DNA from: Dyella sp. M7H15-1
Lineage (GTDB): Bacteria; Pseudomonadota; Gammaproteobacteria; Xanthomonadales; Rhodanobacteraceae
Direction: 5' to 3'
Length of the DNA stretch: 64,000 nt
Assembly: GCF_004114615.1 (NCBI RefSeq)
Contig: NZ_CP035300.1
Span: 1 to 64,000 of the forward strand
Shown: one piece after another, positions 9,970 to 27,849 of the stretch
How positions within the stretch are numbered: position 1 is the first letter of the stretch
Layout: the number at the start of each line of letters is the position of its first letter
Notes under the pieces: generated by a model
What the model was told of the DNA's origin: nothing
Database searches by the model: none
The model's input: the letters and a program-made list of their open reading frames with translations, nothing else
Program-made: the position numbers and the translations under genes

Positions 9970-10103
9970 GTTTCCTTTGTCGGATCAGGCTTCATGCGTG
10001 GAAGCTTCGATTTCTTCCGCCCGAAACGCTTGTCGACGGTTGCAAGGCGTTCCTGATCATTGGCAGGCAATGTCGCCGCTGCGGTTTGCGCCGGAACGCA
10101 TGA
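9966..10103 (+). CDS. 45-residue basic protein with CxxC
   Basis: Starts MSFLCRIRLHAWKLRFLPPE and contains CRRCG near the C-terminus. The start overlaps the previous stop (ATGA) and the stop overlaps the next start (ATGA), which supports translation. Probably a small zinc-binding protein; function unknown. Confidence 0.5.
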   Translation: MSFLCRIRLHAWKLRFLPPETLVDGCKAFLIIGRQCRRCGLRRNA

Positions 10104-10303
10104 TCCGCTGCGAAACCTGCCAACACTTCCAGCGCGACCGGATCAACCCGGCCGCCGGCATGTGGCGATGCGGACATCCCTCGACGCACGGGTACTTCTA
10201 CCCAATGCAGCGACACCAGTGTGCCGACCATGCCGAGATTGGCACGGCGCGCGCGCAGGAGCGTCACCCGATGGGCGGGGCGCAACCTATCCATTCACCC
10301 TGA
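10100..10303 (+). CDS. Small cysteine-rich phage protein
   Basis: 67 residues starting MIRCETCQHFQRD, with further cysteines in WRCGHPS and QCADH, a likely zinc knuckle of four ligands. Such proteins are frequent beside RusA and late-control genes in phages. Coupled to the gene before by ATGA. Confidence 0.6.
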   Translation: MIRCETCQHFQRDRINPAAGMWRCGHPSTHGYFYPMQRHQCADHAEIGTARAQERHPMGGAQPIHSP

Positions 10304-10341
10304 CCCCAGTTCGCCCTGATTTGAAAAATTTCGGAGAGAAA

Positions 10342-10806
10342 ATGGATACCGCCATCGTGATCGCTTTCACCATCCCCGGGGAGCCTGTTGCGAAGGGGCG
10401 CGCCCGGTCAACGCCGCTGATGCGGAACGGTTGGCCTGTGATCGGCAAAGGTGGTCGGCCAGTGGTCACCCAGTACACGCCGGAAAAGACGGCGCGGTAT
10501 GAGAACCTGGTGCGTCTGGCTGCCCAGCAAGCGATGGCTGGGCGAGATCCAGAGCAGGGTGCTGTAGAGCTCACGGTGCGAGCGTTCTTGCCGATCCCGG
10601 CCAGTTGGAGCATGAGGAAACAGCGTGCCGCTGCGCTGGGCGAGATCAAGCCGACAAAGAAGCCAGACCTGGACAACCTGCTCAAAGCCATCAAGGATGG
10701 CGCGAATGGGGTCACCTGGCGCGACGACGCGCAGGTGGTCGATGTACGCAGCAGCAAGCGGTATGGGACCCCTCGCGTTGAGGTCGAGATTCGGAGCGCG
10801 GCGTGA
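10342..10806 (+). CDS. rusA: RusA-like Holliday junction resolvase
   Basis: 154 residues from the ATG at 10342 (GGAGAGAA upstream). The family core is clear: FTIPGEPVAKGRAR at the N-terminus and KPDLDNLLKAIKDGANGV followed by W-R-D-D-A-Q-V, which supplies the catalytic aspartates. RusA enzymes cut four-way junctions made during phage recombination and replication and so clear DNA for packaging. The stop overlaps the next gene (GTGA). Confidence 0.92.
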   Translation: MDTAIVIAFTIPGEPVAKGRARSTPLMRNGWPVIGKGGRPVVTQYTPEKTARYENLVRLAAQQAMAGRDPEQGAVELTVRAFLPIPASWSMRKQRAAALGEIKPTKKPDLDNLLKAIKDGANGVTWRDDAQVVDVRSSKRYGTPRVEVEIRSAA

Positions 10807-11078
10807 CCTGCAAAGCGTCCTTCGCCGATTATGTTCAAGGCGTTGCCGACACATTGGCAGAGCGCTATGGCGTACCGCGCGCCGAGGCCGATCGGATTGC
10901 TTGTGACCTCGAGCTGGAAGTGATCAGGGTGTTGGTGACCCAGTCGCAGCGCCTGATGCGGGACTATCAGGAAAAAGGGCCCGTGAAGCTGGCCAAGCGT
11001 ACCGGTGAGCACCGTGTGACGCTCTGGAGGAAGAATCGTCGAGCAGCTGCTGTGATGCGCGAGACGGCACGAAAGTGA
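10803..11078 (+). CDS. Small HTH protein
   Basis: 91 residues starting with a GTG that overlaps the rusA stop. The C-terminal part GPVKLAKRTGEHRVTLWRKN is a convincing helix-turn-helix, and the N-terminal half is helical. It closes the early operon just before the cargo block. Possibly a regulator of middle or late expression; not assigned. Confidence 0.55.
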   Translation: MTCKASFADYVQGVADTLAERYGVPRAEADRIACDLELEVIRVLVTQSQRLMRDYQEKGPVKLAKRTGEHRVTLWRKNRRAAAVMRETARK

Positions 11079-11209
11079 GCGACTTTTTCGGGCACTCACG
11101 CGTAGCCGATACGCAGTAAAATGACTAAATCTCCTCCATGGATCCAGCCGCGCCCATGTCATGACCGAATCGGGAGCGACATCAAGGGGGCGCTGTAGAA
11201 TTGAGTAAG

Positions 11210-11794
11210 ATGAAAATGTGCGCGAGCAAACTGCTACCGGGTCCGACGGCGCGGTTGCGACTGCGTCCGTGGACGCAGTCGGATAGGCTGCAATTTCGTG
11301 AGATGAACGTGGACAGGCGCGTGATGGAGTATTTCCCCGCGCCATTAAGCGCCGCCGAGAGCGATGCTTTCGCTGATCGCATCAGCGAACATCAAGAAAA
11401 ACACGGTTTTAGTCTTTGGGCTGTGGAGCTGCGCTCCACGTCGACTTTCATTGGTTTTACCGGACTGGCTGTCCCCCGATGGGAGTTGCCTTTCACTCCC
11501 TGCGTTGAGATCGGTTGGCGTCTTGCGCGTCACTCCTGGGGGCAAGGTTACGCAACCGAAGCCGCAAAAGCTGCGTTGGCTTTTGGCTTTGACGAACTGG
11601 TACTTGAAGAAGTCGTGTCCTTTACTGCAGAAATCAATAATCGCTCGCGACGCGTCATGGAGCGACTTGGCATGCAGCACTGCGAAAGCGAAGACTTCTG
11701 TCATCCCGCTCTGCCGCCTGCCCATCCATTGGCAAAACACGTCTTGTATCGACTCACTCGTGAAGCATGGAAGAAAACCGAGGTAGGTAAATGA
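11210..11794 (+). CDS. GNAT-family N-acetyltransferase (RimJ/RimL-like)
   Basis: 194 residues. The start at ATG 11210 is preferred to an upstream TTG. Family pattern: TARLRLRPWTQSDRLQF, IGFTGLAVP, VEIGWRLARHSWGQGYATEA (acetyl-CoA P-loop) and NNRSRRVMERLGM, as in acetyltransferases acting on ribosomal-protein or small-molecule amines. The substrate cannot be read from sequence. It sits between the phage early operon and the pilus operon and is not part of phage machinery, so it is probably accessory cargo. Confidence 0.85.
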   Translation: MKMCASKLLPGPTARLRLRPWTQSDRLQFREMNVDRRVMEYFPAPLSAAESDAFADRISEHQEKHGFSLWAVELRSTSTFIGFTGLAVPRWELPFTPCVEIGWRLARHSWGQGYATEAAKAALAFGFDELVLEEVVSFTAEINNRSRRVMERLGMQHCESEDFCHPALPPAHPLAKHVLYRLTREAWKKTEVGK

Positions 11795-11982
11795 CGACCG
11801 ATTCGCTGTATCCAGACAACTTTTTCGTGCTGGTTACAGTCTGACCTTCAGCCGGCCTGCGCCCGTGCCGCTCGTTGATGTCATCTATTTATCCATTAAA
11901 ATCATTGATTTAGGCCGATATGCGGCGGATTTTTCACGAATCCCGGCCAACCCTCGGCTATAGGTGGTGGAATTCTGAGCTT
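11795..11982. other. Gap before pilus operon end
   Basis: No supported gene. A 17-codon frame begins at 11791 overlapping the GNAT stop, but nothing else supports it. Confidence 0.4.
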
Positions 11983-12948
11983 TCAGAACGCGATAGTCGC
12001 CGTGATGGTGTCGCTGTAATTGCCTGGTGGCGGTGTCGTTTGCGCCGGAATGAGGCCGTAGACTGTCGCGCTTTGGGGGGCGCCGGTGCCGGTGTCGGTA
12101 TACATGCTGGTTCCCGCGGTGCCATCGCCCCATGGCGTGCCGTGGGCGGAGTCCAGGTAGAGCTGATAGGACACCGTCCCCCCTCCGCCTTGCAGGGATA
12201 GGGTACGGGCGCTCACGTTGCCGCTGCCGCCGCCATTGAGGGCGATGCGATAGGCATCGTTGTTGGTGCAGGTTACCGAGATCGACGTCGTGGCATTGAT
12301 GGCGCTGCTCAGCAAGCCGGTGGTGCCGAAGCTGAGGTTGTTGGCATTGATCAGGCAATCGTTGACCACGGTGGCGCTGGCCGTAAAAGGAAACGCCGTC
12401 GCCGGCGTGGTGATGGCCGGGCATCCCGGCGCTGTCAACAAATAGTACGCATAGTTGAGAGCGGTCTGGGCGCCGCTGAAGGATTGGCTATACACGGTAC
12501 TGCTGTCGCTGGCGGTCGGCACCAGCGGCTGACTGGCGGTGATGAGGCCATAGTACGAAACCGTATGGTTGGCCGAGGTTCCTATCAGTGGCTTGGCAAT
12601 CGTGACGGATATAGGTGTCGTACCGGCGCTGGTCGATCCCCAGGCTATGGAATTGGCTGCATCCTGGTACAGGCCATACTGCAAGGCATTGCTGCCGTTG
12701 GTCATGCTGAGCGGCGTGCTTGCGTTGAGGTTGAGGCAGACCTGCGCGTTGGGCGCCAGGGAAATCAGGGTCCAGTTGCAAGTCACGGTGATGGAGCCGC
12801 TGGCTGACACGGCAGCGCCGCTGATGGGATTGACGTTGCCGAAATTGATGTTGGTAGGCGCGGCCGAGCAGGTTTGTGCATGCACCACCTGCCCGACGAG
12901 CAGGAGCAGGGCGGCCAGCAACAGCTGCCATCGGTTGCGCCGGCTCAT
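11983..12948 (-). CDS. Csu-type pilus tip protein (two SCPU domains)
   Basis: 321 residues from the ATG at 12946-12948, which overlaps the usher stop (ATGA). A signal peptide (RRNRWQLLLAALLLLVGQVV) precedes two spore-coat-protein-U domains: one starting near CSAAPTNINFGNVNPISGAA and one near DCLINANNLSFGTTGLLSSA, each with its paired cysteines and a C-terminal strand (SDTITATIAF). A two-domain SCPU protein at the end of a chaperone-usher operon corresponds to the CsuE tip adhesin, which anchors archaic pili to surfaces. Confidence 0.8.
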   Translation of the reverse strand: MSRRNRWQLLLAALLLLVGQVVHAQTCSAAPTNINFGNVNPISGAAVSASGSITVTCNWTLISLAPNAQVCLNLNASTPLSMTNGSNALQYGLYQDAANSIAWGSTSAGTTPISVTIAKPLIGTSANHTVSYYGLITASQPLVPTASDSSTVYSQSFSGAQTALNYAYYLLTAPGCPAITTPATAFPFTASATVVNDCLINANNLSFGTTGLLSSAINATTSISVTCTNNDAYRIALNGGGSGNVSARTLSLQGGGGTVSYQLYLDSAHGTPWGDGTAGTSMYTDTGTGAPQSATVYGLIPAQTTPPPGNYSDTITATIAF

Positions 12949-15350
12949 GGATGCACGTCCTCGCGGCGACAGATCAGCGGCCCAATCAAGGGCAGGGCGT
13001 GGTCGGTCGGCGGCTTGTAAGGGAAGGTGACGGTGCAATGCCACGCAGCGCCATCGAGCTGGAGATGATTGTTGGCCTTCAGGCCGTCGACGAAGGTAAG
13101 GCCGTCGTAGCCGACAATGGTGTCGGTGCCGCTTTCGAGGTGATGGACGCGTGTTCCGGCGGGTATCGGCTTGCCCGACGCGTCATGCAGAAGAATCGAT
13201 GCAGCGGTGTATCGTGAGATCGGAAACCACCCTAGCACTCCTGCTTGGACTTGCGGCACCAGCACCATCGCGGTGGTCTCGATGCGCATGTCGACCGGCA
13301 GCCCCGAGGTGTCGATCGCAATGTGATTGGGCTGGTAGGCATTCAGATCCGGTACCAGCAGGTGGCCGCTATCGTTGGTATGACCAAGCAGTCGATTCTC
13401 ATGCAGGACCGGCACACCCGCCACGCCATTCGTCGAGACCAGGGCGAAGCCGTCATAGATGCGCCGGGAGAATTGCACGTCGCCATCCATCAGCACGATG
13501 GAGCCAAGCGCGTCGAGCGATGCCGTGGTGTGTCCTGCATAGTTCTGCACAACGCCAGTCAGCTGGCCGGCGTTGCCGAGGTATTGCAACTGCGCCTGGT
13601 GAAAGCCCATCTGGTTGAACTGACCCGTTTGCACACCCCAACCCCAGCCCCCTGCGTAGTCGACCGGACGCAACGCCTGCAGATTGTTGTAGGCGCGTCC
13701 GCCCTGGACGCCTGCCACTGCGTCCAAGGACACATTCTCGTCCAACCCAAGGCTCACATTGAGAAACACACCGCGTGAAGCGTGTTGGTGAAAGTCGCGA
13801 TACGCGCTCAGATTCACCGACAGGTTGTGGCGCAGACTGAGGCCGTAGGACACAGATGCAATACGCGAGGCTTTCACGTGTGGAAACTTCGAACTGATAT
13901 AGCTCACGGCAAAGTTCTGGCTGCTGAAAAAGGGGAGTGAGAGGGTCAGCCGATCGGTATGCGTGGGGACGAGGGCGCCGTCGCGAGCGGCAAGATCCCC
14001 GTAGTGGCCAAACGTACGAATGCTCTGCGCATCGATGGCGTAGTGCGGTTCGATCCATTGATAACCGGTGCTGAGCTGGGTGCCCGCCAGGCGGCCCGCG
14101 CTGAACCCGATCGCGCCATTGACGACACCGTCCACGCCGAGCCTGAGCAATGCTCCGGCGCCGGCGTTGAAAAGATGATCGGTCGCCTCGCCATGCGCTT
14201 CGACGGTAAGCGCATCGCTGAAGCCGTGGCGCCAGGATCCGCTGCCGACTGGGTGCGGACCGTAGTCGAACGAAGTGAGACCGTAGTTGTGCCGCAAAAA
14301 ACCGGCCTCCACCGAATAGCTCGACAAGCCCGTCGCCAGCATTTGGGTATCGATGTAGATAGGCATCGACATCGTCACGGTTTGGCCTAGGGCGTTGCGC
14401 GTGATCAGGGTGGCATTGCCGCCGCCCGTGATACCGGGGACTTCATTGACCACAAACGGCCCGCTCGGCACCTGCACGTTGAAATGCTGCATGTTGTTCA
14501 CGTACAGGTCGAGCGATGAGGGCACCAGGGTCGATCCGGTCAAGACCGGAAGTGGGAAGGTGACCAGGTCCGGGCGCAGGGCGAAGTTGCTCCGCCACTG
14601 GAAGCCGGCGAAACGTATCGAGCGCGACCAGTCCAGCGACGAGGTGATGGCATCGCCCCATTGAAAGGTGCTCAGCGTATCCGGGTTGGATCGGCTCCAC
14701 GAGGTGTCAAAGCGCAGATAGTGGCGTGAGGCGGAATCCAGATACGCAATGCCGGTGTTGCTGAACACCCCGGCAGGATCGAAATAGCGCTGTTCCATCC
14801 ACAACGCGAAACGGTTACCTGTCTGGTTTTGTGCAAAGACATCGTAGTTGAGGACAAAACCGCGCCCTGATGTCGCCGGCATCGTTGGTGGCAACTGCCG
14901 TGAATCGACTACGTAAGGTTGCTGCACATTGTCCGGTAGCGTTATCGCGACACGCTGGTGCGTTCTGTCATAACGATAGCGAACCCCTGCAATCGCATCG
15001 AGCGGCACTTGGGCCGAGGTGGCGATACCCAGCTTGTCGGTTGCCAGGCCCATATGGGCAAGATCGGCTCCGCTGGCGGACAACTTCGCTCCGGTCGCCT
15101 GGAAGTGCACGATGAATGAAAGCTCCTGTCCGTTCACCGCCACCTCCAGGTAGACATCCTGGGGTTGGCGCATTTCCCCTGCGAAACTGGCAGGGACGGC
15201 GGCGCGTCCTGGAAACGCGATGAGCGCACCCGCCAGGGCCATCCCCAACAATGCTTCGCACGGAATCGGGCGAACGGCATGGTCCCCACTAACTGCGCCG
15301 GCTTGGAACGCGCATAGACGTGCTTCGCGACGGGCGCGGTGTTTGAGCAC
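12945..15350 (-). CDS. Outer-membrane pilus usher (Csu/FimD type)
   Basis: 801 residues from a GTG three bases after the chaperone stop. A basic N-terminus and hydrophobic segment precede the usher N-domain (DVYLEVAVNGQELSFIVHFQ). The long beta-barrel follows, with FVLNYDVFAQNQTGNRFALW and GGNATLITRNALGQTV, and then C-terminal domains (LVSTNGVAGVPVLHENRLLG; FVDGLKANNHLQL). The length is normal for archaic-type ushers. It would recruit chaperone-subunit complexes and export the pilus. No frameshift is seen, so it looks intact. Confidence 0.9.
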   Translation of the reverse strand: MLKHRARREARLCAFQAGAVSGDHAVRPIPCEALLGMALAGALIAFPGRAAVPASFAGEMRQPQDVYLEVAVNGQELSFIVHFQATGAKLSASGADLAHMGLATDKLGIATSAQVPLDAIAGVRYRYDRTHQRVAITLPDNVQQPYVVDSRQLPPTMPATSGRGFVLNYDVFAQNQTGNRFALWMEQRYFDPAGVFSNTGIAYLDSASRHYLRFDTSWSRSNPDTLSTFQWGDAITSSLDWSRSIRFAGFQWRSNFALRPDLVTFPLPVLTGSTLVPSSLDLYVNNMQHFNVQVPSGPFVVNEVPGITGGGNATLITRNALGQTVTMSMPIYIDTQMLATGLSSYSVEAGFLRHNYGLTSFDYGPHPVGSGSWRHGFSDALTVEAHGEATDHLFNAGAGALLRLGVDGVVNGAIGFSAGRLAGTQLSTGYQWIEPHYAIDAQSIRTFGHYGDLAARDGALVPTHTDRLTLSLPFFSSQNFAVSYISSKFPHVKASRIASVSYGLSLRHNLSVNLSAYRDFHQHASRGVFLNVSLGLDENVSLDAVAGVQGGRAYNNLQALRPVDYAGGWGWGVQTGQFNQMGFHQAQLQYLGNAGQLTGVVQNYAGHTTASLDALGSIVLMDGDVQFSRRIYDGFALVSTNGVAGVPVLHENRLLGHTNDSGHLLVPDLNAYQPNHIAIDTSGLPVDMRIETTAMVLVPQVQAGVLGWFPISRYTAASILLHDASGKPIPAGTRVHHLESGTDTIVGYDGLTFVDGLKANNHLQLDGAAWHCTVTFPYKPPTDHALPLIGPLICRREDVHP

Positions 15351-15353
15351 GCG

Positions 15354-16073
15354 TCAGGGTGATATATCGATGGTGACATGGTCTTCAACCGACAATGCAT
15401 TGACGTAGGCGCGAATGTCGACAGGCGCCTTGAGCGCACCATGACTGTCCAGGTTCAAGCGCCATTGCATGGTCCGGCCGGCCAGCGCGTAGCCTAGCAG
15501 TCCTTTTTCCACCAGGTAGGTTTTCCCATCGCCGGCCATCAACTGCACCATGCTTATGCGTGCGCGACGACGTCCGCTATTGGTGACACGCAGCCACCAG
15601 CCTTCGGCATCCTGTCGTGCGTGCCAGGCCAGCGCCGGTGCTCCGGTTGCACCCTCCGGTTCGACGAATACCGGCACCGAGTAGCGCAGTCTTATCGTTA
15701 CGCCATTTTCGTCGGCGCTATCGGCGGCAGGCAGTTCATCGATCAGTAGACGGTAGCTTTGCTCCTGGCCGGCATTGCTGTCATGGCTTAGAACCAACCG
15801 GACGTACTGTTCGCCGTGGGCGGGGATTTCGATCAGGGGCGGGCTGGCGACCAGGTCCTGGGTGGCCTGCATGTTGTCCTGGCCATTGGACTGGTCCCAG
15901 CGGAACACTCGTACCTGTCCGTACAGCGGTTGATCGCCGGGATTTCGCAAGGTGAGGGTGGCGGCGCCTTCGCCGTGCCTGAGCTCGATCATCACCGGAG
16001 AAATTTGCAGCGACGACGCGCGCCCGATGACGCAAAGCATCAGCATTCCCACCGCAAGCAGCAGGCGTCGCAC
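15354..16073 (-). CDS. Periplasmic pilus chaperone (CsuC/PapD type)
   Basis: 239 residues with a signal peptide (RRLLLAVGMLMLCVIGRASS). The PapD-like fold is recognisable from LQISPVMIELRHGEGAATLT, NPGDQPLYGQVRVFRW, LIEIPAHGEQYVRLVL and QSYRLLIDELP, in normal order. The G1 donor-strand region RLRYSVPVFVEP is present. It would bind subunits in the periplasm and deliver them to the usher three bases downstream. Confidence 0.9.
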   Translation of the reverse strand: MRRLLLAVGMLMLCVIGRASSLQISPVMIELRHGEGAATLTLRNPGDQPLYGQVRVFRWDQSNGQDNMQATQDLVASPPLIEIPAHGEQYVRLVLSHDSNAGQEQSYRLLIDELPAADSADENGVTIRLRYSVPVFVEPEGATGAPALAWHARQDAEGWWLRVTNSGRRRARISMVQLMAGDGKTYLVEKGLLGYALAGRTMQWRLNLDSHGALKAPVDIRAYVNALSVEDHVTIDISP

Positions 16074-16087
16074 CAGGGCGCCCGTAC

Positions 16088-16612
16088 TCAGAAATAGACC
16101 GTTGCGGTAACGGTTGTCTGGTAAGTATCAGGTTTTGGCGTCGTTTGGGATGGCGCCTGGCCGTACACCGTGATGGACTGGGCCGCACCCGTTCCGGTTC
16201 CACCGACCGTATTGGTGCCCTGCGTATTGCCCCATATGGTCGTGTGGCCGGCGTCCTGGTATAGCTCGAAGCCAACCGTGGTGCTTGTATTGCCGACCGT
16301 TGTGCCGGCCATTAGTCGGCTGGCTACGGTTGAACCGCTCACTGTGCCGGCGTCCAGGCCGACATTGTAGGGCGTAGTGTCACTGCACGTGACGGACACC
16401 GTCGTCTGCTGATTGACGGCGGCCGACAGTACGCCGGTGGCGCCGAAATTCAACGGATTGGCGGTAATGCTGCAATTGGCCTGCAGCGTCAAGGTGGCAG
16501 TGAAGGTCGATGTAGCGGTGCCGTTACTATAGACGGCTGCGGCTAGCGGCGTCGGTAGGGTATCGGCGATCACAGCAACAGCTAACGCAAAGCACAGCAG
16601 ATGGCGCTTCAT
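16088..16612 (-). CDS. Csu-type major pilin (SCPU domain)
   Basis: 174 residues from the ATG at 16610-16612, behind an AGGGGAG site. A signal peptide (KRHLLCFALAVAVIADTL) is followed by the spore-coat-U domain: NCSITANPLNFGATGVLSAA, VSVTCSDTTPYNVGLDAG, and the C-terminal strand YQTTVTATVYF. A single SCPU domain in first position matches CsuA/B-type main subunits. Only one minor subunit gene (the tip) is present, so this is a minimal pilus operon. Confidence 0.88.
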   Translation of the reverse strand: MKRHLLCFALAVAVIADTLPTPLAAAVYSNGTATSTFTATLTLQANCSITANPLNFGATGVLSAAVNQQTTVSVTCSDTTPYNVGLDAGTVSGSTVASRLMAGTTVGNTSTTVGFELYQDAGHTTIWGNTQGTNTVGGTGTGAAQSITVYGQAPSQTTPKPDTYQTTVTATVYF

Positions 16613-16809
16613 GGAGGGCTCCCCTTGAGTTGCGGAATGGCTAGACAACATGCCCCCAAACGCACCACTTCCACATCGCTTCCTGAGCATGAATTGCATT
16701 ATCTTTCCCGCATTTATAGGCTAGGTCAAGTATCGCCTGGCGATGGATTTGTGGCATGGTGTTTCGAAGCATCGCTCAAGGCCGATCGAACGTGACGGCC
16801 GCCTTGGCG
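16613..16809. other. Pilus operon upstream region
   Basis: About 200 bases that should contain the pilus promoter, read leftward. On the minus strand a TTGACC (16724-16729) and GATAAT (16698-16703) exist but are 20 bases apart, so I do not call them a promoter. No gene seen. Confidence 0.4.
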
Positions 16810-17118
16810 TTACGCCACTTTCGTGTCCCTGCACCCAAGTCTTGCGATGACCACCTCGAAATTGTTGATCTGTTCCCAGATGCCGAGGAACTCGACCGTG
16901 TTCCGGTTACGCAGCCAGCCATACAGGATGCGCTCATCGCCGAAGCGCTTCACCATGTCAGTCAGCGAGATGTAGTCCTGCTCGTGGCGACTTGCGATGC
17001 CGATCTCGGCATACTGCACGACGATGCTGCGGTTCTTCAATATCGCTCCCATGACTGTCGGGAAATAGATGTTTTGCGACCGGTGAAACACCTTGCGTTG
17101 TGGTCGCGTTGTGACCAC
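16810..17118 (-). pseudogene. Truncated KilA-N domain protein
   Basis: 102 residues. The segment QDYISLTDMVKRFGDERILY then GWLRNRNTVEFLGIWEQINN is the N-terminal half of a KilA-N DNA-binding domain. Where homologues continue with a phage-antirepressor-like fold, this frame turns into an unrelated 16-residue tail and stops. It therefore looks like a deletion remnant of a phage regulator left at the border between the pilus operon and the toxin-antitoxin genes. Confidence 0.6.
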
Positions 17119-17153: not shown

Positions 17154-17360
17154 ATGAGCGCCGCCGCCGACACCTATGTCCGAGCCCGAATCGATTCCGT
17201 CACCAAGGAACGCGCCGCCGTCGCCCTTGGAGCGATGGGGCTATCAATTTCCGACGCCATGCGATTACTAATGTTGCGGATTGCCGACGAACGCTGCCTA
17301 CCTTTCGATGTGAAGGCGCCTAACGCCCCTACAGAGGATGCAGTTCCCCATGGTTTGTAG
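17154..17360 (+). CDS. RelB/DinJ-family antitoxin
   Basis: 68 residues. The ribbon-helix-helix N-terminus DTYVRARIDSVTKERAAVAL and MGLSISDAMRLLMLRIADER, then LPFDV, is the RelB/DinJ signature. Antitoxins of this family neutralise RelE/YafQ-type mRNA interferases, but no such toxin follows; a 58-codon gene and a Doc gene do. It may be an orphan that now regulates the Doc pair. Confidence 0.8.
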   Translation: MSAAADTYVRARIDSVTKERAAVALGAMGLSISDAMRLLMLRIADERCLPFDVKAPNAPTEDAVPHGL

Positions 17361-17374
17361 AGCAAAGGTGCGTT

Positions 17375-17551
17375 ATGAGTAGTAAGCCCAAAAAAGTGAT
17401 ACACGGTGTTGAGCTGATGCCTAGGCCGATCATCCACCCGAAGAAGGTTGTAACCGTCGCCACTCCGGAAGGTCGGAGTGAGGTTATTCGCGCCGTCCGG
17501 AAAGTCATGGCCACACACGATAAGGTACTCAGGGCACTCAAGGATCGATGA
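17375..17551 (+). CDS. 58-residue basic protein, likely Doc antitoxin
   Basis: Starts MSSKPKKVIHGVELMPRPII behind an AAAGGTG site and ends exactly at the Doc start (TGA then ATG with no gap). Very basic, with a C-terminal helix (VIRAVRKVMATHDKVLRALK). Its place directly before doc is that of the antitoxin, but it does not look like Phd. Possibly an unrecognised antitoxin family. Confidence 0.6.
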   Translation: MSSKPKKVIHGVELMPRPIIHPKKVVTVATPEGRSEVIRAVRKVMATHDKVLRALKDR

Positions 17552-17941
17552 ATGTTGGATCTCGAATATGTGATCGCCGTACATGACGAAATCCTTGCGA
17601 AATACGGCGGCCTCCCTGGTTTTGCCAATGGTGGACGTGGTGGCGTTGAGGCAGCGATACAGCGTGTTGAAAACCACATTTTCTATGCCGACCTCAATGA
17701 TGTCTTCGGCATTGCCGCAGCGTACGCGATAGCTATCGCCCGTGGCCATGTGTTCAATGATGCAAACAAGCGTACCGGGCTAGCTTGTGCGATGACTTAC
17801 CTTGAGGCAGAAGGGATAGTTATTGGGGAGTTTTCGAACCTTGAAGAGGTCATGGTGGATGTTGCGCAAGGAACCGTTGATCAAGGGGATTTTGCCGAAT
17901 ATCTCGGTACGATCTGGCGAAGGTCACAAGGCGCAGAATAA
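17552..17941 (+). CDS. doc: Doc (Fic-fold) toxin
   Basis: 129 residues. The motif HVFNDANKRTG matches the Doc active site (HxFxDANKR), and the start LDLEYVIAVHDEILAKYGG, then GLPGF, is typical. Doc proteins phosphorylate elongation factor Tu and stop translation. The catalytic His, Asp, Asn, Lys and Arg are all present, so the toxin appears intact. It is the last gene of the TA cluster. Confidence 0.9.
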   Translation: MLDLEYVIAVHDEILAKYGGLPGFANGGRGGVEAAIQRVENHIFYADLNDVFGIAAAYAIAIARGHVFNDANKRTGLACAMTYLEAEGIVIGEFSNLEEVMVDVAQGTVDQGDFAEYLGTIWRRSQGAE

Positions 17942-18199
17942 TTGGGCAAGCCACCGAGAGTGTCACATCAAGCCCGATCTGCCGCTGGTTCGCTAAAGGA
18001 ATTCTGACACTCCCCAGAATAACGCGGTTTGGTCACGCAGTGAACTTTGGGACTGATGGAATTGTCGGCGGTTCCGGCTTACTCCAAGGCGGCAGCTGGT
18101 GACACGACTGCTTGTTCTACCCCGTGTTGCACAAACCCCGTTGAACGTGCAACACGAGGTGCTATTGAATAGCTGTCACCCCGAAATCGGAGTGACACC
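17942..18199. other. Intergenic region with inverted repeats
   Basis: No gene. It contains a perfect 9-bp inverted repeat GTGTTGCAC (18124-18132) and GTGCAACAC (18147-18155) with a 14-base loop. A second, imperfect one (TCACCCCGA / TCGGAGTGA, 18177-18196) ends four bases before the GTG start of the next gene and includes its weak ribosome site. Operator or leader-control roles are possible. Confidence 0.4.
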
Positions 18200-18415: not shown

Positions 18416-18624
18416 TTCGCGCCCGCAACGCATTGCGGCCAGATGCCGCCTGTCATTCGGCTGACGTACTGACACCCGTCGAGCGTGCCGCAGATCGCGA
18501 GAAGAAGCCGCACCATCCAAAGCCGCAGACGCAATCGGAACCGCGGCATGACCGGCAGCTCAAGTGGCGTGACGTGCCGGCGATCCGCGCTATTCTCCAG
18601 TCCCTGCTGAGGGTAGGCCGATGA
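18412..18624 (+). CDS. Small phage protein upstream of Q-like gene
   Basis: 70 residues, basic, Pro/His-rich middle (KKPHHPKPQTQSEPRHDRQ) and a C-terminal helix (DVPAIRAILQSLLRVG). Start and stop both overlap neighbours (ATGA at each end). Function unknown. Confidence 0.5.
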   Translation: MIRARNALRPDAACHSADVLTPVERAADREKKPHHPKPQTQSEPRHDRQLKWRDVPAIRAILQSLLRVGR

Positions 18625-19205
18625 ACACCGTCCTTTCCGAGCCGCTGTTTGCCTCTACACACGCCGCGCTGACCTTCTGCCTAAACTTCGTGGAACAGCA
18701 GTACGATCGGCCATTGATGAATCGGTTGGCTTCGCCTGTCATAGGCAATGGCAAAGGCCTTGCCGGGATCGACGGATCTGCGCAAGCCGGTATGATCCGC
18801 GCTGAGCTGCGGCGTCTGGATCGCCTCGAAGAGTGCGCCCTTGTTGCACGTTGCGCACCGCCGTTTCTGCCCTGTAGTTGCGGTCATAGCTGCTGCAGTG
18901 GGCAGAAACAGCATCGCGAATGGGCGGACGCCGTTGGTGAGTTGGCGCGCGAGTTGAGGCACTCGGTTTTTCAAGATCGGGAGGTCAACATTTCGCTGCG
19001 GCGCGGCTATGTGATGAGGCACTTCACTTCCAAGAAATACCGTGAAGATGCCGAGGTAGTGGCCGAGCGATTCGGCATTGTGCGAAGCACCTTTTTTGCC
19101 CACTACGCGAAGGTCAAAACTCACTTGGCGAAGCTGGAAGACCGTGCCTATGACGCGCTGAATCAACGATTGCGAACGGGTGGTGTCGTAGGCGATCTGG
19201 ATTAG
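18621..19205 (+). CDS. Zinc-finger protein, likely Q-like late regulator
   Basis: 194 residues. A cysteine cluster (CAPPFLPCSCGHSCCSGQK, about 78-96) suggests a zinc finger, and the C-terminal half carries a helix-turn-helix-like region (YREDAEVVAERFGIVRSTFF). It lies between early genes and terminase and is followed within a few bases by a promoter and hairpin arranged like lambda PR'-tR'. That position is why I infer a late antiterminator role; there is no direct Q homology I can assert. Confidence 0.5.
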   Translation: MNTVLSEPLFASTHAALTFCLNFVEQQYDRPLMNRLASPVIGNGKGLAGIDGSAQAGMIRAELRRLDRLEECALVARCAPPFLPCSCGHSCCSGQKQHREWADAVGELARELRHSVFQDREVNISLRRGYVMRHFTSKKYREDAEVVAERFGIVRSTFFAHYAKVKTHLAKLEDRAYDALNQRLRTGGVVGDLD

Positions 19206-19314: not shown

Positions 19315-20061
19315 TTGACGGATCTGAGCATTACATGGCGCCCGCTTGAGGTGCTGATTCCCTACGTCCGCAACGCGCGCACCCACTCTGATGCGCAGGT
19401 GGCGCAGCTCGCCGCCAGCACCGCTGGTCTTACTGATGACGATGCAGCGCCGGCAGTGGCCGAAGCCGGGGTGTCGCAGTCGGGGGATATCTGGATCTGC
19501 GGCGATCACCGCGTGATGTGCGGCAACAGCGCAAACGTGACGGACGTAGAGCAGTTAATGGACGGCTACAAGGCCGATCTCATCATCACCGACCCGCCGT
19601 ATAACGTCGCATACCAGGGGAAACCGCCGATGCGCTGACCATCCAGAACGACAGCATAGGCGTGGAGGCGTTCTATCAGTTCTTGCTGGCGGCCTACGAC
19701 GCCATGTTCAAGGCGGCGAAGGATGGCGCCGGTCTGTATGTGTTCCATGCAGACAGTGAAGGCGTGAATTTCCGCAAAGCCATGGCTGACGCCGGCTTCA
19801 AGCTGGCGCAGTGTTGCGTATGGGTGAAGCAATGCTTCGTGATGGGTCGGCAGGATTACCACTGGCAACACGAACCCGTGCTCTACGGCTGGAAGCCGAT
19901 CGGCGCGGCTTATGGAGCTTGATCCGAAGTATTGCGACGTGATCGTGCGTCGCTGACAAGCGTTCACAGGGCAGCAGGCAGTGCTGGCCGCAGACAGGCG
20001 TGCTTTCGACATGGTGGAAATGGCGCGCGTAGAGGTCACCTATGCCGGGAGCGAAGGGTAA
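19315..20061 (+). pseudogene. Decayed ParB-methyltransferase gene
   Basis: The pieces of one ParB-like/DNA-methyltransferase protein lie in order but broken. A ParB-like start (TWRPLEVLIPYVRNARTHSD) loses its middle. The methylase motif DPPY follows in DLIITDPPYNVAYQGK, then a frameshift near 19620. The next section (AFYQFLLAAYDAMFKAAKDG ... WVKQCFVMGRQDYHWQHEPV, YGWKP) ends early near 19922. The C-terminal part (ELDPKYCDVIVRR) has TGA where a Trp is expected, before QAFTGQQAV. Intact versions are widespread in prophages and modify phage DNA; this one cannot. Confidence 0.8.
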
Positions 20062-20470
20062 ATCAGGCGGCAAGCGCTGCGGCGCCGGTCGGTCGGCATT
20101 TCTGCCGACACGGCAGCAGCGCGAACTGGTCGAGCAGTTGGCCGCGTTCGGCATTCGGCACGTGGATATCCCGCTGTTTATCAAGGATGCCGCCGGCAAG
20201 CCCATCACCGAGCCTACGCTCCGCAAGCATTTCGCTGAGGAACTCGATACCGGTCGCGTCAAGGCAAACGTCAAGGTTGCGCAGACGCTGTACAAGAAAG
20301 CACTCACGGGTGACACAACGTCGATGATCTTCTGGCTGAAGTGCCGCGGCGATTGGAAGGATGCCCAGCGCGTCGAGCTGACTGGCAACGCTGGTAGCCC
20401 GATCCAGAGCGTCAACATGACCACCGAAGAGTTCCGCGAAATAGCTAGGAGCGTCGCCGACGAGGTTTAA
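20042..20470 (+). CDS. Terminase small subunit-like protein
   Basis: 142 residues directly before the large terminase. Basic Gly-rich N-terminus (PGAKGKSGGKRCGAGRS), a helix-turn-helix-like region (LVEQLAAFGIRHVDIPLFI), and a C-terminal part ending RGDWKDAQRV, as in many DUF-type small terminases. It should recognise the packaging site. The start lies inside the tail of the methyltransferase pseudogene. Confidence 0.75.
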   Translation: MPGAKGKSGGKRCGAGRSAFLPTRQQRELVEQLAAFGIRHVDIPLFIKDAAGKPITEPTLRKHFAEELDTGRVKANVKVAQTLYKKALTGDTTSMIFWLKCRGDWKDAQRVELTGNAGSPIQSVNMTTEEFREIARSVADEV

Positions 20471-20473
20471 GGC

Positions 20474-21865
20474 ATGTGCCCATTCAGTCCGCATGAGCAA
20501 TTCGCGGCTGAGAGCATGGCGCGGGCCGATCTGTATTTCTTCTCGCGCTGGATGTTTCTGCAGCGCAAGCGATTCAAATGGCTGCGCGGGCCGCACCACA
20601 AGAGCATCTGTGACGCGCTGATGCGCGTGTTCTGCGGCGAGTGCAGGCGGCTTATCATCAACGTGCCGCCGCGCTACTCGAAAACAGAGCTGGCGGTGGT
20701 GAATTTCATCGCATGGGCGTTGGGCCAAGTGCCGGATGCCGAGTTCATCCATGCCAGCTACGCGGCCCCGCTGGCGGTCAACAACAGCGCGAACGTGCGT
20801 GCCTTGGTGCAGCACGAAGCGTATCAACGGATTTTCCCCGAATGCCGTCTGGCATCGGACGCAAAAAGTCACTGGACGACAGCAAAGGGTGGCGTGATGT
20901 ACGCGGCCGGCGCTGGCGGCACGATTACCGGCTTCGGCGCCGGCAAGCACCGCGAGGGTTTTGGCGGCGCCATCATCATCGACGATCCGCACAAGCCGGA
21001 TGAGGCAAGGAGCGATGTGATCCGACAGGGCGTCATCGACTGGTTCCAGAATACGCTGGAAAGCCGCAAGAACAGCAAGAACACACCGATCATCCTGATC
21101 ATGCAGCGCCTGCATGAAAGGGATCTGTCGGGCTGGTTGCTGGATGGCGGCAACGGAGAAACGTGGGAGCACGTCTGCCTTTCAGCGATTCAAGACGATG
21201 GCTCGGCGCTCTGGCCGGAAAAACACACGATCGAGGATCTGCGCCGCATGGAGCAGTCCGCGCCGTATGTGTTTGCCGGGCAGTATCGGCAGCGTCCAGC
21301 ACCACCAGAAGGCGGCGTGATCAAGCCGGACATGCTGGAGGTCATTGATGCCATCCCGGCCGGCAACCTCCGGTGGATGCGCGGTTGGGACTTGGCTTCG
21401 ACCGTCGATGGTGATTACACCGCCGGCGGCAGGCTCGGGAAACTATCGGACGGCCGCTTCGTCATCGCGGACATGGTGCGCTTGCGCTGTGGACCCGACG
21501 AACGCGACACGGCGCTCATGAATACGGCGTCCCGCGACGGCCGCACGGTGCGTATCAGTCTGCCGCAAGACCCTGGGCAGGCTGGCAAGACGCAGGTGCT
21601 GTATCTGACCCGGAAGCTTTCCGGCTACCCGGTGACTACCTCGCCGGAATCGGGCGACAAGGTAACGCGGGCAGAGCCACTGGCGGCGCAGATCAACGTG
21701 GGCAATGTGCTGATGCTGCGCGGCCCATGGAACGACGCACTGATCAACGAAATGCGGCTGTTCCCGAATGGAGCGCACGATGACCAGGTGGACGCGCTTT
21801 CGCGCGCGTTCTCCGGATTGCTCGAATCGCATGACCCCGCGCAGGTGAAACCGCTGCGCATGTAA
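20474..21865 (+). CDS. Terminase large subunit (Terminase_6)
   Basis: 463 residues. The ATPase part has the Walker A-like NVPPRYSKTEL (about 63-73) and Walker B GGAIIIDDPHKP (about 163-175). The nuclease part has GWDLASTVDGDYTA with metal-binding Asp residues and the terminal HDDQVDALSRA. It packages DNA into the procapsid and cuts it. It is complete and follows the small subunit by three bases. Confidence 0.95.
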   Translation: MCPFSPHEQFAAESMARADLYFFSRWMFLQRKRFKWLRGPHHKSICDALMRVFCGECRRLIINVPPRYSKTELAVVNFIAWALGQVPDAEFIHASYAAPLAVNNSANVRALVQHEAYQRIFPECRLASDAKSHWTTAKGGVMYAAGAGGTITGFGAGKHREGFGGAIIIDDPHKPDEARSDVIRQGVIDWFQNTLESRKNSKNTPIILIMQRLHERDLSGWLLDGGNGETWEHVCLSAIQDDGSALWPEKHTIEDLRRMEQSAPYVFAGQYRQRPAPPEGGVIKPDMLEVIDAIPAGNLRWMRGWDLASTVDGDYTAGGRLGKLSDGRFVIADMVRLRCGPDERDTALMNTASRDGRTVRISLPQDPGQAGKTQVLYLTRKLSGYPVTTSPESGDKVTRAEPLAAQINVGNVLMLRGPWNDALINEMRLFPNGAHDDQVDALSRAFSGLLESHDPAQVKPLRM

Positions 21866-21886
21866 TCCATTTACGCAGGTTCCGCT

Positions 21887-23266
21887 GTGAACTCACCCAA
21901 CGTCCGATCCCTTTCGCCTGTTATGGAGGCGCAGTCCGAGTCATGGCCGATGATCAAGGCTTTGATGGGCGGCACTGCGGACATTCGCGCCGTCGGCAAA
22001 ACGCTTTTGCCGAAGTGGCCGGGCGAAGACGGCGACAGTTATGCCGCGCGCTTGAAGACGTCGGTTTTGTATCCGGCTTTTCGGCATACGGTTTGCGTCA
22101 ATGCGGCACGGCCTTTTGCAAAGCCTCCTACGGTCGTGGCAGAGAACATTCCCGAGGAATGGCTGAAAGACATTGACCAACTCGGCATGCCGCTGCCGGC
22201 GATGTCGAATGCGCTGCTGATCCATGCACTCGCGTATGGCTTGTGCGGCGTGCTGGTGGACTATCCGCCGGCGGAAGGTGTTCGCACCCGCGCGGATGAA
22301 AAGCAGGCCAGCTTTCGGCCGTATTTCGTCAGCTATATGCCGCAGCAGATCCTGGGCTGGAAGATGCAGGGCACGCGGCTGGTGCAGTTGCGCCTGCTGG
22401 AAAGCATCGAGGTCGATGATGGTCCATGGGCCACGAAGTGCATCGAACAGGTCCGCGTGCTCACCCCTGGTGCGTGGCAGACGTATCGCCCGAATCCGAA
22501 CATCAAGGAGCAGTGGGACCTCTTTGCCGAAGGAAGTCATTCGCTGAAAGAGATTCCGTGGGTCTTTTTCTATGGCAACCGTCTCGGCTTCGGTCGTGGC
22601 GAATGCCCGCTGCTCGATCTCGCGTACTTGAATGTTGAGCACTATCAGTCCAGCAGCGATCAGCAGAACGTGTTGCATGTCGCGCGCGTGCCTATCCTTG
22701 TGGCAATCGGCTTTGGTGAATCAGAAATCAAGATAGGCGCATCGTCAGCCATCACCAGCGAGAACGAAAAGGCCTCGCTGACATACACCGAACACACCGG
22801 TGCTGCGATCGAGGCGGGCAAGCAGTCTTTGGATGACCTGGAAGACCGCATGCGCGCCATTGGTGCCGAGCTGATCGATCAGGAGCAGGCGCCCACGGCC
22901 ACCCAGATCAACTCGGAGGACGAAGTTGCGCGCTCGCTGCTGCAGCAGATCGTCGAGCAGTTCGAAGAATCGCTGGAACAAGCCCTTAGCTTCATGGCTC
23001 AGTGGGTTGGAAAGCCCGCGGATGGCATCGAGGTGGAGTTGTTCAAGGCTTACGAACAGGCGCCAAGCACGGATGTGTCGACGCTGACGTCTGCGGCCAG
23101 TGCCGGTGCCATTTCCAAGCAGACACTGTTCGAGGAGCTAAAGCGACGCGACGTGCTCGCACCCGATCGCGAGTGGGCCGATGAAGCGACCCGACTCAAA
23201 GCAGAGGCGCCGGACCCTTCGACGGATCCGAACGCTGATCCAAACAGCAAACCGAAGGCCCCGTAA
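21887..23266 (+). CDS. Portal protein (DUF4055)
   Basis: 459 residues from GTG 21887. The pattern (TSVLYPAFRHTVCVNAARPF, KPPTV; GVLVDYPP; FRPYFVSYMPQQILGWK) is that of DUF4055 proteins, the portal of several P22-coat-type phages. The C-terminus is acidic with Asp-Pro repeats (DPSTDPNADPNSKPKAP). Its stop codon sits in the stem of a terminator-like hairpin. Confidence 0.85.
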   Translation: MNSPNVRSLSPVMEAQSESWPMIKALMGGTADIRAVGKTLLPKWPGEDGDSYAARLKTSVLYPAFRHTVCVNAARPFAKPPTVVAENIPEEWLKDIDQLGMPLPAMSNALLIHALAYGLCGVLVDYPPAEGVRTRADEKQASFRPYFVSYMPQQILGWKMQGTRLVQLRLLESIEVDDGPWATKCIEQVRVLTPGAWQTYRPNPNIKEQWDLFAEGSHSLKEIPWVFFYGNRLGFGRGECPLLDLAYLNVEHYQSSSDQQNVLHVARVPILVAIGFGESEIKIGASSAITSENEKASLTYTEHTGAAIEAGKQSLDDLEDRMRAIGAELIDQEQAPTATQINSEDEVARSLLQQIVEQFEESLEQALSFMAQWVGKPADGIEVELFKAYEQAPSTDVSTLTSAASAGAISKQTLFEELKRRDVLAPDREWADEATRLKAEAPDPSTDPNADPNSKPKAP

Positions 23267-23281
23267 CGGGGGGGCTTTTTC
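23255..23281 (+). terminator. Terminator-like hairpin after portal
   Basis: GGCCCCG TAA CGGGGGGGC followed by five T residues; it overlaps the portal stop codon. Confidence 0.6.
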
Positions 23282-23326
23282 ATGGCCGATACGCGGATGC
23301 GCTAAGCCGCTACTGGATAACAAACG

Positions 23327-24091
23327 ATGAAACTCAAGACAGTCGAACTCAATGGCAAGCACTACGCCGAAATCACGGACGGCAAGCCGGTCTACGTGCA
23401 CGACGACGGCAAGGAAATCCCTTTCGATGCCGTGCAGACCGTGGACACCATCAAGCGCCTCAACGGCGAGGCCAAGGGTCACCGCGAACGTGCGGAAACC
23501 GCCGAGGGCGCACTGAAGGTCTTCGAAGGCCTCGATGCCGCCGCGGCGCGTAAGGCGCTGGATGTCGTGAAGAACCTGGACGACAAGAAGCTGGTGGACG
23601 CTGGCGAAGTAGATCGCGTGAAGTCCGAGGCCATCAAGGCCGTCGAAGACAAATACGCACCGATCGTCAAGGAGCGCGACAAGCTGCAAGCCTCGCTGGT
23701 GTCTGAGAAGGTCGGCGGAAGTTTTGCGCGCAGCAAGATGATTGCCGACAAGTTGGCCATCCCAGCCGACCTGGTGCAGGCGCGCTTCGGCGAGCACTTC
23801 AGGCTCGAAGGCGAAAACGTGGTCGCCTACGACAAATCGGGCAACAAGCTCTTCAGTCGCTCCAGTCCCGGCGAGTTGGCGACATTCGATGAAGCACTTG
23901 AGATGATCGTCGAGCAATACCCCTACCGCGATTCGATCCTCAAAGGGTCTGGTGCCAGCGGCGGCGGCGCGCAGAACAACCATCCCGGCCATGCCGGTGG
24001 CAACAAGAGCATGCCGCGCGCGCAGTTCGACAAGCTCGATCCTGGCGCGCAGATGGCGCACGTCAAGGGCGGCGGAGCGATCACCGACTGA
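23327..24091 (+). CDS. Scaffold-like head protein (DUF6651 type)
   Basis: 254 residues between portal and coat. N-terminal strands (LKTVELNGKHYAEITDGKPV), then a long charged coiled coil (about 45-130, VDTIKRLNGEAKGHRERAET), then a Gly-rich linker (GSGASGGGAQNNHPGHAGGN). Position and helical build fit a scaffolding protein that guides coat assembly. The family call is from memory of phages with the same gene order. Confidence 0.65.
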   Translation: MKLKTVELNGKHYAEITDGKPVYVHDDGKEIPFDAVQTVDTIKRLNGEAKGHRERAETAEGALKVFEGLDAAAARKALDVVKNLDDKKLVDAGEVDRVKSEAIKAVEDKYAPIVKERDKLQASLVSEKVGGSFARSKMIADKLAIPADLVQARFGEHFRLEGENVVAYDKSGNKLFSRSSPGELATFDEALEMIVEQYPYRDSILKGSGASGGGAQNNHPGHAGGNKSMPRAQFDKLDPGAQMAHVKGGGAITD

Positions 24092-24130
24092 TCACGCATT
24101 ACTGCTGACCACCCATCAATACCACCCCGA

Positions 24131-24155
24131 GGCCGTTCAATCGAGCGGCCTTTTT
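24131..24155 (+). terminator. Terminator-like hairpin before coat gene
   Basis: GGCCG ... CGGCC with a 10-base loop followed by TTTTT. Confidence 0.6.
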
Positions 24156-24242
24156 CATGCCCGCAACGCGGATGCCGCGCGGGTGCTCGGGCCGGATGGC
24201 TCACGAACGCACTCCTGATCTTTCCGAACCCCGGAGTCATCC

Positions 24243-25403
24243 ATGTCGAATACGCTTACCAGCCTCATTCCCGACCTGTACGAGGCGATCGATGTCGTCT
24301 CGCGCGAGATGGTCGGCTTCATTCCGTCGGTGACCTTGAGTGCGACCGCAGAACGCGCGGCGCTTAATGAGCCGATTCGCGTGCCGATCACGCCGGCAGC
24401 GGCTGCCGAGGACGTCACCCCTGGCCAGCTGCCGCCCGACGATGGTGATCAAAACATCGACAACAATCAGATCATCATTACCAAGTCCCGCATGGTGCCG
24501 TTCCGCTGGACTGGTGAAGAGCAGAAGGGCGTGGACAACCAGTCGCCGAATGGCGGTTATGCGCCGATTCGTCAGAACCAGATCCAGCAAGCGATTCGCA
24601 CGCTGGTGAACGAGATCGACGCGAATGTCGGCACCCTTTTCAACACGGTGTCGCGCGCGGAAGGCACTCCTGGCACGACACCGTTTGCGACCGGCCTGAC
24701 CGACACCGCGCAACTGCGCAAGATCCTTTCCGACAACGGTGCGCCGCTGTCCGGCATGCAGTGCGTGATCGACACGACCGCCGGCGCGAATCTGCGCAGC
24801 CTGACCCAACTGACCAAGGCGAACGAAGCCGGCACGGTGGAACTGCGCGCCCAGGGCAAGCTGCTGGAGCTGCATGGATTCACCCTGCGCGAATCAGCGG
24901 GCGTTGCCGAATCGGTGGCGGCTGGCTCCGTAACCGGTGCCGTTACTGCCGCAGGTGCCAAGGGGGCGACCAGTGTCACCCTGACCCCCCCGGCCGGTGG
25001 CGCTGTGGCTCTGCTGGCCGGCGATGTCATCACGCTCGCTGGCGATCCCAACAAGTACGTCGTGGCGCAAGCCGTCAACATCGGTGCTTCCACCAACGGC
25101 ACCGTTGTGATCGGCGCACCGGGTCTGCGCGTGACTGCCGCTACCGCAGCGGTGACGGTGCTGGGTGCTTCGACCCGCAACATGGCGTTTGCGCGCTCGG
25201 CGATCGTGCTTGCCACCCGCCTGCCGGCTCTGCCGGAAGAGGGCGACATGGCGGATGACCGCACCATCATCGTCGATCCACGCAGCGGCATCGCCTTCGA
25301 GTTCGCGATGTACCGCCAGTACCGCCGTGTCCGCTACGAGGTGTCCATTGCCTACGGCTGGGCCAACATCAAGCCGGAACACTCCGCGCTCCTGCTTGGT
25401 TGA
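24243..25403 (+). CDS. Major capsid protein (P22 coat type)
   Basis: 386 residues. The P22 gp5-like pattern is clear: SLIPDLYEAIDVVSREMVGF, EPIRVPITPAAAAEDVTPGQ, MVPFRWTGEEQKGVDNQ, and a C-terminal AFARSAIVLATRLPALPEEG with a following basic, Tyr-rich stretch (FAMYRQYRRVRYEVS). It has an HK97-type fold with an inserted I-domain in that family. A P22 coat coupled to a contractile tail is a recognised but less common combination. Confidence 0.88.
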   Translation: MSNTLTSLIPDLYEAIDVVSREMVGFIPSVTLSATAERAALNEPIRVPITPAAAAEDVTPGQLPPDDGDQNIDNNQIIITKSRMVPFRWTGEEQKGVDNQSPNGGYAPIRQNQIQQAIRTLVNEIDANVGTLFNTVSRAEGTPGTTPFATGLTDTAQLRKILSDNGAPLSGMQCVIDTTAGANLRSLTQLTKANEAGTVELRAQGKLLELHGFTLRESAGVAESVAAGSVTGAVTAAGAKGATSVTLTPPAGGAVALLAGDVITLAGDPNKYVVAQAVNIGASTNGTVVIGAPGLRVTAATAAVTVLGASTRNMAFARSAIVLATRLPALPEEGDMADDRTIIVDPRSGIAFEFAMYRQYRRVRYEVSIAYGWANIKPEHSALLLG

Positions 25404-25454
25404 TCCCATCGGTTGCGGGGTCTACGGCCTCGCAACCCTATCGAGGAAATGAAC

Positions 25455-25706
25455 ATGTCCAATTCCCTGTTGGTCGCCATCGAGAAAGGCGGCCAGACGT
25501 TGCGCGTGCACATCGATGCGCTCGAACAGCATCTGCAACTTGGTTGGAAGAAGGTCGAGGCTGAGGCTGAAAAGTTGGCCGCTGAGGTCGAGACTGAGCT
25601 CGAGGAAGTCGGTGCGGATGTCGAGAAGGGCGCGCAAAACGCTGGAGCCGCGGTGAAACGCGTCGGTCGGCGCGGCAATGCTGGCTCGGCCAATCCGGAG
25701 GCGTAA
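25455..25706 (+). CDS. Coiled-coil head protein
   Basis: 83 residues from the ATG at 25455 (spacing to GAGGAA decides between two close ATGs). Almost entirely acidic helix (KKVEAEAEKLAAEVETELEE), ending basic and Gly-rich. It lies directly after the coat gene; possibly a decoration or assembly factor. Confidence 0.55.
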   Translation: MSNSLLVAIEKGGQTLRVHIDALEQHLQLGWKKVEAEAEKLAAEVETELEEVGADVEKGAQNAGAAVKRVGRRGNAGSANPEA

Positions 25707-25712
25707 TTCGCC

Positions 25713-26117
25713 ATGGCATTGACCGCTCAGCAGGTCGCCGACGTGCGGCGCTTCGCCGGCTATCCGATGCTGGGCACGGACACGCCGGCGGATGATTCCC
25801 GCGACTTCGCCTACGGCTTCGTGTCGCCTGGTATCTGGCAAACGCTCTTTCACCGGTTGAACAACCTGACGCCGGAGAACGAAAACACGCTGATCACCGT
25901 CTACCTGACGAACCTCTCCACGCTGGAGACCGCCATCGTGAACGCCGCGGCGAATCTCGATACCGCGCAGGCGTCGGTGTGGGTGCATAACCCCACCGAA
26001 GTGCATGACCGGGAACGCTTGTTCGACAGCTGGCGCCGGCGCATGTGCGCATTCATTGGCATTGCGCCAGGGCCGGTGCTTGGTGCTGGTGGCGGTGCGC
26101 GCATCGTGCGTTGCTGA
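25713..26117 (+). CDS. Head completion/connector-like protein
   Basis: 134 residues with the N-terminal phrase LTAQQVADVRRFAGYPMLG seen in small head-tail connector proteins of myophages. The rest is helical. Placed between coat and tail genes, it probably binds the portal. The family is not named with certainty. Confidence 0.6.
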   Translation: MALTAQQVADVRRFAGYPMLGTDTPADDSRDFAYGFVSPGIWQTLFHRLNNLTPENENTLITVYLTNLSTLETAIVNAAANLDTAQASVWVHNPTEVHDRERLFDSWRRRMCAFIGIAPGPVLGAGGGARIVRC

Positions 26118-26140
26118 TTTTTTCAGATTCCCAAAAAAGC

Positions 26141-26175: not shown

Positions 26176-26199
26176 GTTTCAACCCTCTGCAGACTCAAA

Positions 26200-26340: not shown

Positions 26341-26343
26341 TGA

Positions 26344-27842: not shown

Positions 27843-27849
27843 GGCACAC

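Follow-up and report, generated by a model that had tools for sequence, protein, structure and literature searches.

The pilus operon

We analysed a window of 64,000 nucleotides, that is, the whole stretch formed by bases 1-64000 of one 3.52-Mb contig of a Dyella genome, and found in it a complete chaperone-usher pilus operon that lies inside a prophage. The operon consists of four complete open reading frames (ORFs) on the minus strand at 11983-16612, in the order pilin, chaperone, usher, tip. Neighbouring genes overlap by 4 bp or stand 3 and 14 bp apart, and all four have Pfam matches, which bears out an earlier reading of this DNA from its letters alone (the sequence-only reading) that had described four intact, tightly spaced genes. 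Protein lengths are in amino acids (aa):

16088..16612, minus strand: pilin, 174 aa, with an alternative ORF start at 16699 (Pfam SCPU, 3.4e-32 on the longer ORF)
15354..16073, minus strand: periplasmic chaperone, CsuC-like (PapD_N, 2e-21; best PDB match CsuC, 6.7e-28)
12945..15350, minus strand: outer-membrane usher, 801 aa (Usher, PF00577, 5.6e-26; PapC_C, PF13953, 2e-8)
11983..12948, minus strand: tip protein, CsuE-like (SCPU, PF05229, 3.7e-53 in two stretches)

With its SCPU subunits, a chaperone nearest to CsuC and an usher that has both the pore and the C-terminal domain, the operon has the features of the archaic (Csu/sigma) type, and its PDB matches to CsuC and CsuE support this assignment, as the sequence-only reading had proposed. 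For the chaperone, the next different molecule after CsuC, YadV, reached only 1.6e-5. The profiles of the tip and the pilin each had CsuE as their single match, the tip at 2.1e-13 and over the C-terminal domain only of its two SCPU stretches, the pilin at 1.4e-5; the usher profile matched the classical ushers FimD and PapC, in their C-terminal part only. The Csu pilus of Acinetobacter baumannii likewise has a CsuC-type chaperone and SCPU subunits; it has a two-domain tip, to which the tip protein here with its two SCPU stretches may correspond, and its CsuE is the molecule matched by the tip and pilin found here. However, the csu cluster encodes four pilus subunits, according to the available excerpt of PMC4654587, whereas the Dyella operon has one pilin and one tip only.

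The genes are well conserved among relatives: the pilin is 73-84% identical to those of four relatives, and the usher is 81-87% identical in three Dyella. Between the window copies and three Dyella copies, the ratio of nonsynonymous to synonymous divergence (dN/dS) was 0.12-0.19 across the four genes, a value that covers their entire divergence and not specifically the time since the operon moved. These are therefore real genes under constraint.

The insertion in the phage backbone

On both sides, towards RusA and towards the terminase, the operon is flanked by plus-strand phage genes to which it is antisense. Comparison with PHROGs identified a repressor (5626-6435), a primosomal protein, RusA, the small and large terminase and a portal gene, followed by scaffold, head, sheath, baseplate, tail fibre and endolysin genes up to 42773. 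The prophage is that of a contractile-tailed temperate phage. Its genes around and to the right of the operon are:

10060..11078, plus strand: RusA (6.5e-43) and an overlapping 91-aa ORF, the last backbone genes before the insertion
18621..19205, plus strand: 194-aa phage backbone gene, the first recognised after the insertion (homologues in 49 viral loci)
19315..20039, plus strand: ParB/methyltransferase gene, frameshifted (PHROGs and alignment)
20042..42773, plus strand: terminase, portal, head, tail and lysis genes (PHROGs)

We could not find a family match for the 91-aa ORF, or a viral match for it or for the interval 18124-18620, within which the right edge of the insertion would fall. 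Three scans of viral contigs yielded 130 loci in total, the terminase scan being represented by the best 80 of its 599. Thirteen of the 130 (on 12 contigs) carry RusA as well as the 194-aa gene. These two genes stand 31-537 bp apart in 12 of the loci, 1,913 bp in one, and 7,818 bp in the window; similarly, 14 viral loci have 1,574-4,885 bp from RusA to the large terminase, compared with 9,671 bp in the window. An insertion of roughly 7 kb has thus enlarged the gap. Since RusA adjoins the 194-aa gene in related contigs, both flanks belong to one backbone, which agrees with the placement of the operon between RusA and the terminase of a single prophage in the sequence-only reading. A search of 145 phage and viral loci with the cargo proteins found no match to the usher, chaperone, pilin, tip, GNAT or KilA-N protein. 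Lying inside one phage backbone and missing from related phages, the operon in this respect resembles a moron, which would also have a promoter and a terminator of its own; sites of this kind were no more numerous here than in shuffles.

The same slot holds other genes in other phages. In the Bordetella phage vB_BaM-IFTN8 (IFTN8), whose large terminase is 66% identical to that of the window, BrnT/BrnA toxin-antitoxin genes stand directly before the terminase; this 44-kb phage, which was obtained by mitomycin C induction, differs in that it has no pilus genes. In another viral locus (L195), with a large terminase 84% identical, the slot holds a RelB 76% identical to the RelB of the window, and three of the viral loci retrieved by their Doc contain a 58-aa ORF paired with it. 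Another use of the slot is seen in genome G176 (L049:15113-15327), where a related prophage region has tRNA-Gly and tRNA-Met between RusA and the terminase.

The structural genes of the prophage look complete, whereas the ParB/methyltransferase gene is frameshifted. Among the matches listed, the leftmost DNA common to other same-genus genomes begins near 47604, so that the right end of the prophage should lie somewhere from about 42.8 to 47.6 kb. The assembly lacks the left end: base 1 falls inside a phage gene, which we take to be YqaJ-like, and the far end of the contig (3523985) falls inside a chromosomal gene, presumably IPNS-like, so that the contig ends do not join. The TIM family (tpiA), found in all ten same-genus genomes searched, was absent from this genome's assembly. 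Because the contig ends near there, the tRNA-Leu after tpiA-secG was considered as the attachment site and was set aside: that region from eight same-genus genomes was unmatched in the window, and when one of the eight (L062) was compared with the whole genome, it matched only elsewhere beyond its IPNS end. Of the 196 other relatives covered by the whole search, 6 have the large terminase; it was present in none of the 15 other genomes of the same genus.

Two further ORFs stand next to phage genes. One at 4046-5629 (minus strand), beside the phage repressor gene, has a MASE1 membrane-sensor match and is possibly another cargo gene. The other, at 44174-45652 (plus strand), just past the lysis genes, has an N-terminal Pfam match of the ShET2 type (1.7e-41), and a 127-bp stretch upstream of it recurs at 47210-47336.

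Block edges, relatives and a companion gene

Within the inserted stretch, the operon belongs to a block with edges of its own, accompanied by other cargo:

11956..16855, no strand assigned: block shared with D. flagellata (alignments and Pfam match of the neighbour gene)
11201..11794, plus strand: GNAT acetyltransferase (Acetyltransf_3, 1.4e-37)
16810..17118, minus strand: KilA-N gene fragment abutting the right block edge (domain matched only over positions 2-57 of 107)
17154..17941, plus strand: RelB (17154-17360), 58-aa ORF (17375-17551) and Doc (17552-17941), by Pfam and NCBIfam
18091..18123, minus strand: one Tn3-type terminal repeat, outer end 18123, like the repeats of an element at 849.9-854.2 kb

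Homology to D. flagellata spans about 11956 to 16855; that to D. acidisoli and D. choica also begins at 11956, and ends at 16752 and 16745, respectively. At the left edge stand the last codons only of a small companion gene that is convergent on the tip gene in relatives (stub 11956-11979), and the right edge retains the opening codons of a gene for a DJ-1/AraC-type regulator. In D. flagellata, the genes to which the two stubs belong stand directly beside the operon; in the window these neighbours are cut at both edges.

The GNAT, KilA-N, RelB and Doc genes, like the antisense orientation of the operon, go beyond what the sequence-only reading had described. The GNAT stretch was unmatched in 15 other same-genus genomes except for 28 bp of operon edge. 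The KilA-N fragment was compared with the IFTN8 antirepressor as a possible relative, and no homology was found between the two. The segment 17091-18085, which comprises RelB, the 58-aa ORF and Doc, has a second copy, 94% identical, at 1857029-1858024 (1.857 Mb; L294:5030-6025), and a DDE transposase gene adjoins that copy.

A scan of named genomes confirmed 96 stretches related to the operon, from which 80 loci were kept. The minimal gene set, which the sequence-only reading had thought unusual, turned out to be the common form: profiles found pilin, chaperone, usher and tip in the same order at 78 of the 80 loci, and the remaining two (L088 and L127) are cut by contig ends, although such subunit profiles miss divergent subunits, as the companion gene illustrates. 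The expectation that such operons are normally not linked to phages fared better. Compared with a panel of 3,285 translations, drawn from the window, 129 of the 130 viral loci, IFTN8, P2, lambda and Mu, none of the 80 loci showed a phage backbone, within the limits of a panel that does not cover all phages and had no positive control of its own. At seven loci the panel matched one gene region, which we take to be rdgC. The operon sits at differing genomic places in relatives, presumably beside chemotaxis genes in D. flagellata and D. choica and beside sucCD in two other genomes (G017 and G053). The sequence-only reading would have given way to an operon at the same chromosomal place in phage-free strains; phage-free copies do occur in D. 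flagellata, D. choica and D. acidisoli, but not at this place. Among the nearest known systems are the four-gene sigma-type operons of Dyella, Paraburkholderia, Burkholderia, Achromobacter and Pandoraea, which have the same gene set and order and ushers up to 87% identical. They differ in that no phage backbone was seen around them and in that 46 of the 80 keep the convergent companion gene, of which the window has the stub only.

A profile built from five copies found this companion gene near those 46 operons, the five included, at E 2.5e-4 or better and always on the strand opposite the usher. Examples downstream of tip genes are L071:13375-13674 and L099:13259-13549, both on the minus strand. 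The 18 companion proteins that were aligned are short and share two invariant cysteines and a C-terminal W-x-V-x-F pattern. None of the 18 had a significant Pfam match, one reaching SCPU at E 0.1; in a profile comparison the companion aligned, at a probability of 89%, with the N-terminal half of the pilin. The protein is probably secreted and looks like a mini-pilin; it is a candidate mini-pilin or assembly factor. In Burkholderia thailandensis, an unannotated ORF, iou, lies between csuE and bfmS and is dispensable for biofilm (PMC12124856); it may be a counterpart of the companion gene.

Origin of the operon in the prophage

We favour, with some confidence, the explanation that an ordinary chromosomal archaic operon of the Dyella lineage was relocated into a prophage slot and still makes host pili. 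Recombination would have brought a block of about 4.9 kb with the operon to the variable slot that separates RusA from the terminase, beside toxin-antitoxin genes and transposon debris. Such a relocation agrees with the junctions and with how far the operon has diverged. The chaperone would pass SCPU subunits to the usher, which would secrete a fibre of pilin tipped by the presumed two-domain protein. Since neither its upstream region nor its own direction has been lost, the operon most likely continues to produce host pili, and a direction opposite to the phage genes fits independent expression. We thus infer expression and pilus assembly, as well as the agent and the direction of the move, from gene content and arrangement.

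The synonymous divergence (dS) of the usher from that of D. flagellata is 0.535, and that of a core gene (IPNS-like, 212 codons) is 0.525. Core-gene values come from one gene only, and the G011 row, which had a stop codon and an implausible dS, was dropped. On this one core gene, the values would fit a lineage operon that moved locally and would also be compatible with exchange within the genus. Several observations weigh against a local relocation of a functional operon. The two dS values differ for D. acidisoli, with 0.857 for the usher and 0.588 for the core gene (91 codons). The operon is patchy, with an usher of at least 57% identity in 4 of 15 other same-genus genomes, which also fits transfer. 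The D. flagellata flanks are absent from this genome, and hence no old chromosomal site was seen. A promoter scan of the operon found 2 sites against 3.4 expected in shuffles, and no promoter stood out.

It is also conceivable, although we consider it rather doubtful, that the operon is lysogenic-conversion cargo, packaged with the phage, so that adhesion is gained on lysogeny and lost on curing. The use of the slot for toxin-antitoxin genes in other phages (BrnT/BrnA in the mitomycin C-induced IFTN8, RelB in L195) speaks for this, as do the intact operon genes antisense to the phage genes. Against it stand the absence of usher, chaperone, pilin and tip from all 145 phage and viral loci, the frameshift in the prophage methyltransferase gene and the missing left end of the prophage. 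Pattern scans among viral contigs, too, failed to turn up a homologue of the window usher. In a phage collection, all usher matches were under 60% identity; those listed include two records named Acinetobacter phage MD-2021a, of 232 and 306 kb, with a fimbrial usher of 30% identity. Record MW462191.1 was considered as a phage precedent and rejected, because its stretch also holds a penicillin-binding protein, an LysE transporter and a feature named gene transfer agent, and so looks like a host contig. Among plasmids, 108 records had relatives, all under 60% identity and 22 of them on conjugative plasmids, indicating that plasmid carriage of such ushers is not rare.

In the literature on chaperone-usher pili and sigma-fimbriae in prophages, Salmonella was the sole direct precedent that we found, which does not establish that the archaic type is absent from print. 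As far as the excerpted text of PMC9238391 goes, 22 Salmonella chaperone-usher ushers lie in predicted prophage regions, all but one of which are incomplete or questionable. The likeness is that of usher genes within prophage regions; the ushers themselves differ (FimD, StbC, StdB, SafC and one kappa usher), and the excerpted text shows no shared slot. The passages at hand from PMC11332146, PMC3697988 and PMC4042001 hold no further prophage-usher case.

Another unlikely explanation is that the operon arrived as passenger DNA on a Tn3-family transposon, for which the prophage was no more than the landing place. The repeat ending at 18123 is the one that bounds the Tn3-family element at 849.9-854.2 kb, which has both terminal ends, a transposase and a resolvase, and toxin-antitoxin carriage is known for this family (39 of 190 elements, in the available part of the survey PMC7157771). 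However, no second repeat was found in the window at up to 3 mismatches, so that paired repeats are lacking, and all three PF01526 transposase matches of the genome lie outside the window. Doc is outside the toxin families given in that part of the survey, and the edges of the operon block itself, 11956 and 16855, fall inside the inserted stretch. An assembly error, or two separate phage remnants around a chromosomal operon, is very improbable even with unjoined contig ends (a phage gene at base 1, a chromosomal gene at the far end) and a missing tpiA, because related contigs have RusA next to the 194-aa gene, which places both sides in one backbone, and the gene stubs at both block edges look biological.

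Under the favoured relocation, the tie between operon and phage is positional, and spread by the phage is possible. That a temperate phage lineage with a toxin-antitoxin slot before its terminase carries a whole archaic pilus, such that lysogeny installs the adhesin and induction or curing removes it, appears improbable. On that reading, entry into the phage would have removed the conserved companion gene, a candidate mini-pilin, and for this reason the pilus made from the prophage might not match the chromosomal one in length or display.

Work on usher pili has mostly treated them as traits of chromosomes or plasmids. Here a complete archaic operon occupies a defined phage cargo slot and both block edges can be read, which offers a case for how surface structures enter phage genomes, and allows one to ask whether phage-borne surface structures spread afterwards. 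In addition, the comparison brought to light a conserved small protein next to such operons, without a significant Pfam family.

The same genome contains three more usher loci, near 1.33, 2.755 and 2.806 Mb. It is also rich in insertion sequences: at 49907-53525 of the window, two adjoining stretches with rve and Mu-type transposase matches have many genomic copies, at about 95% and 77% identity.

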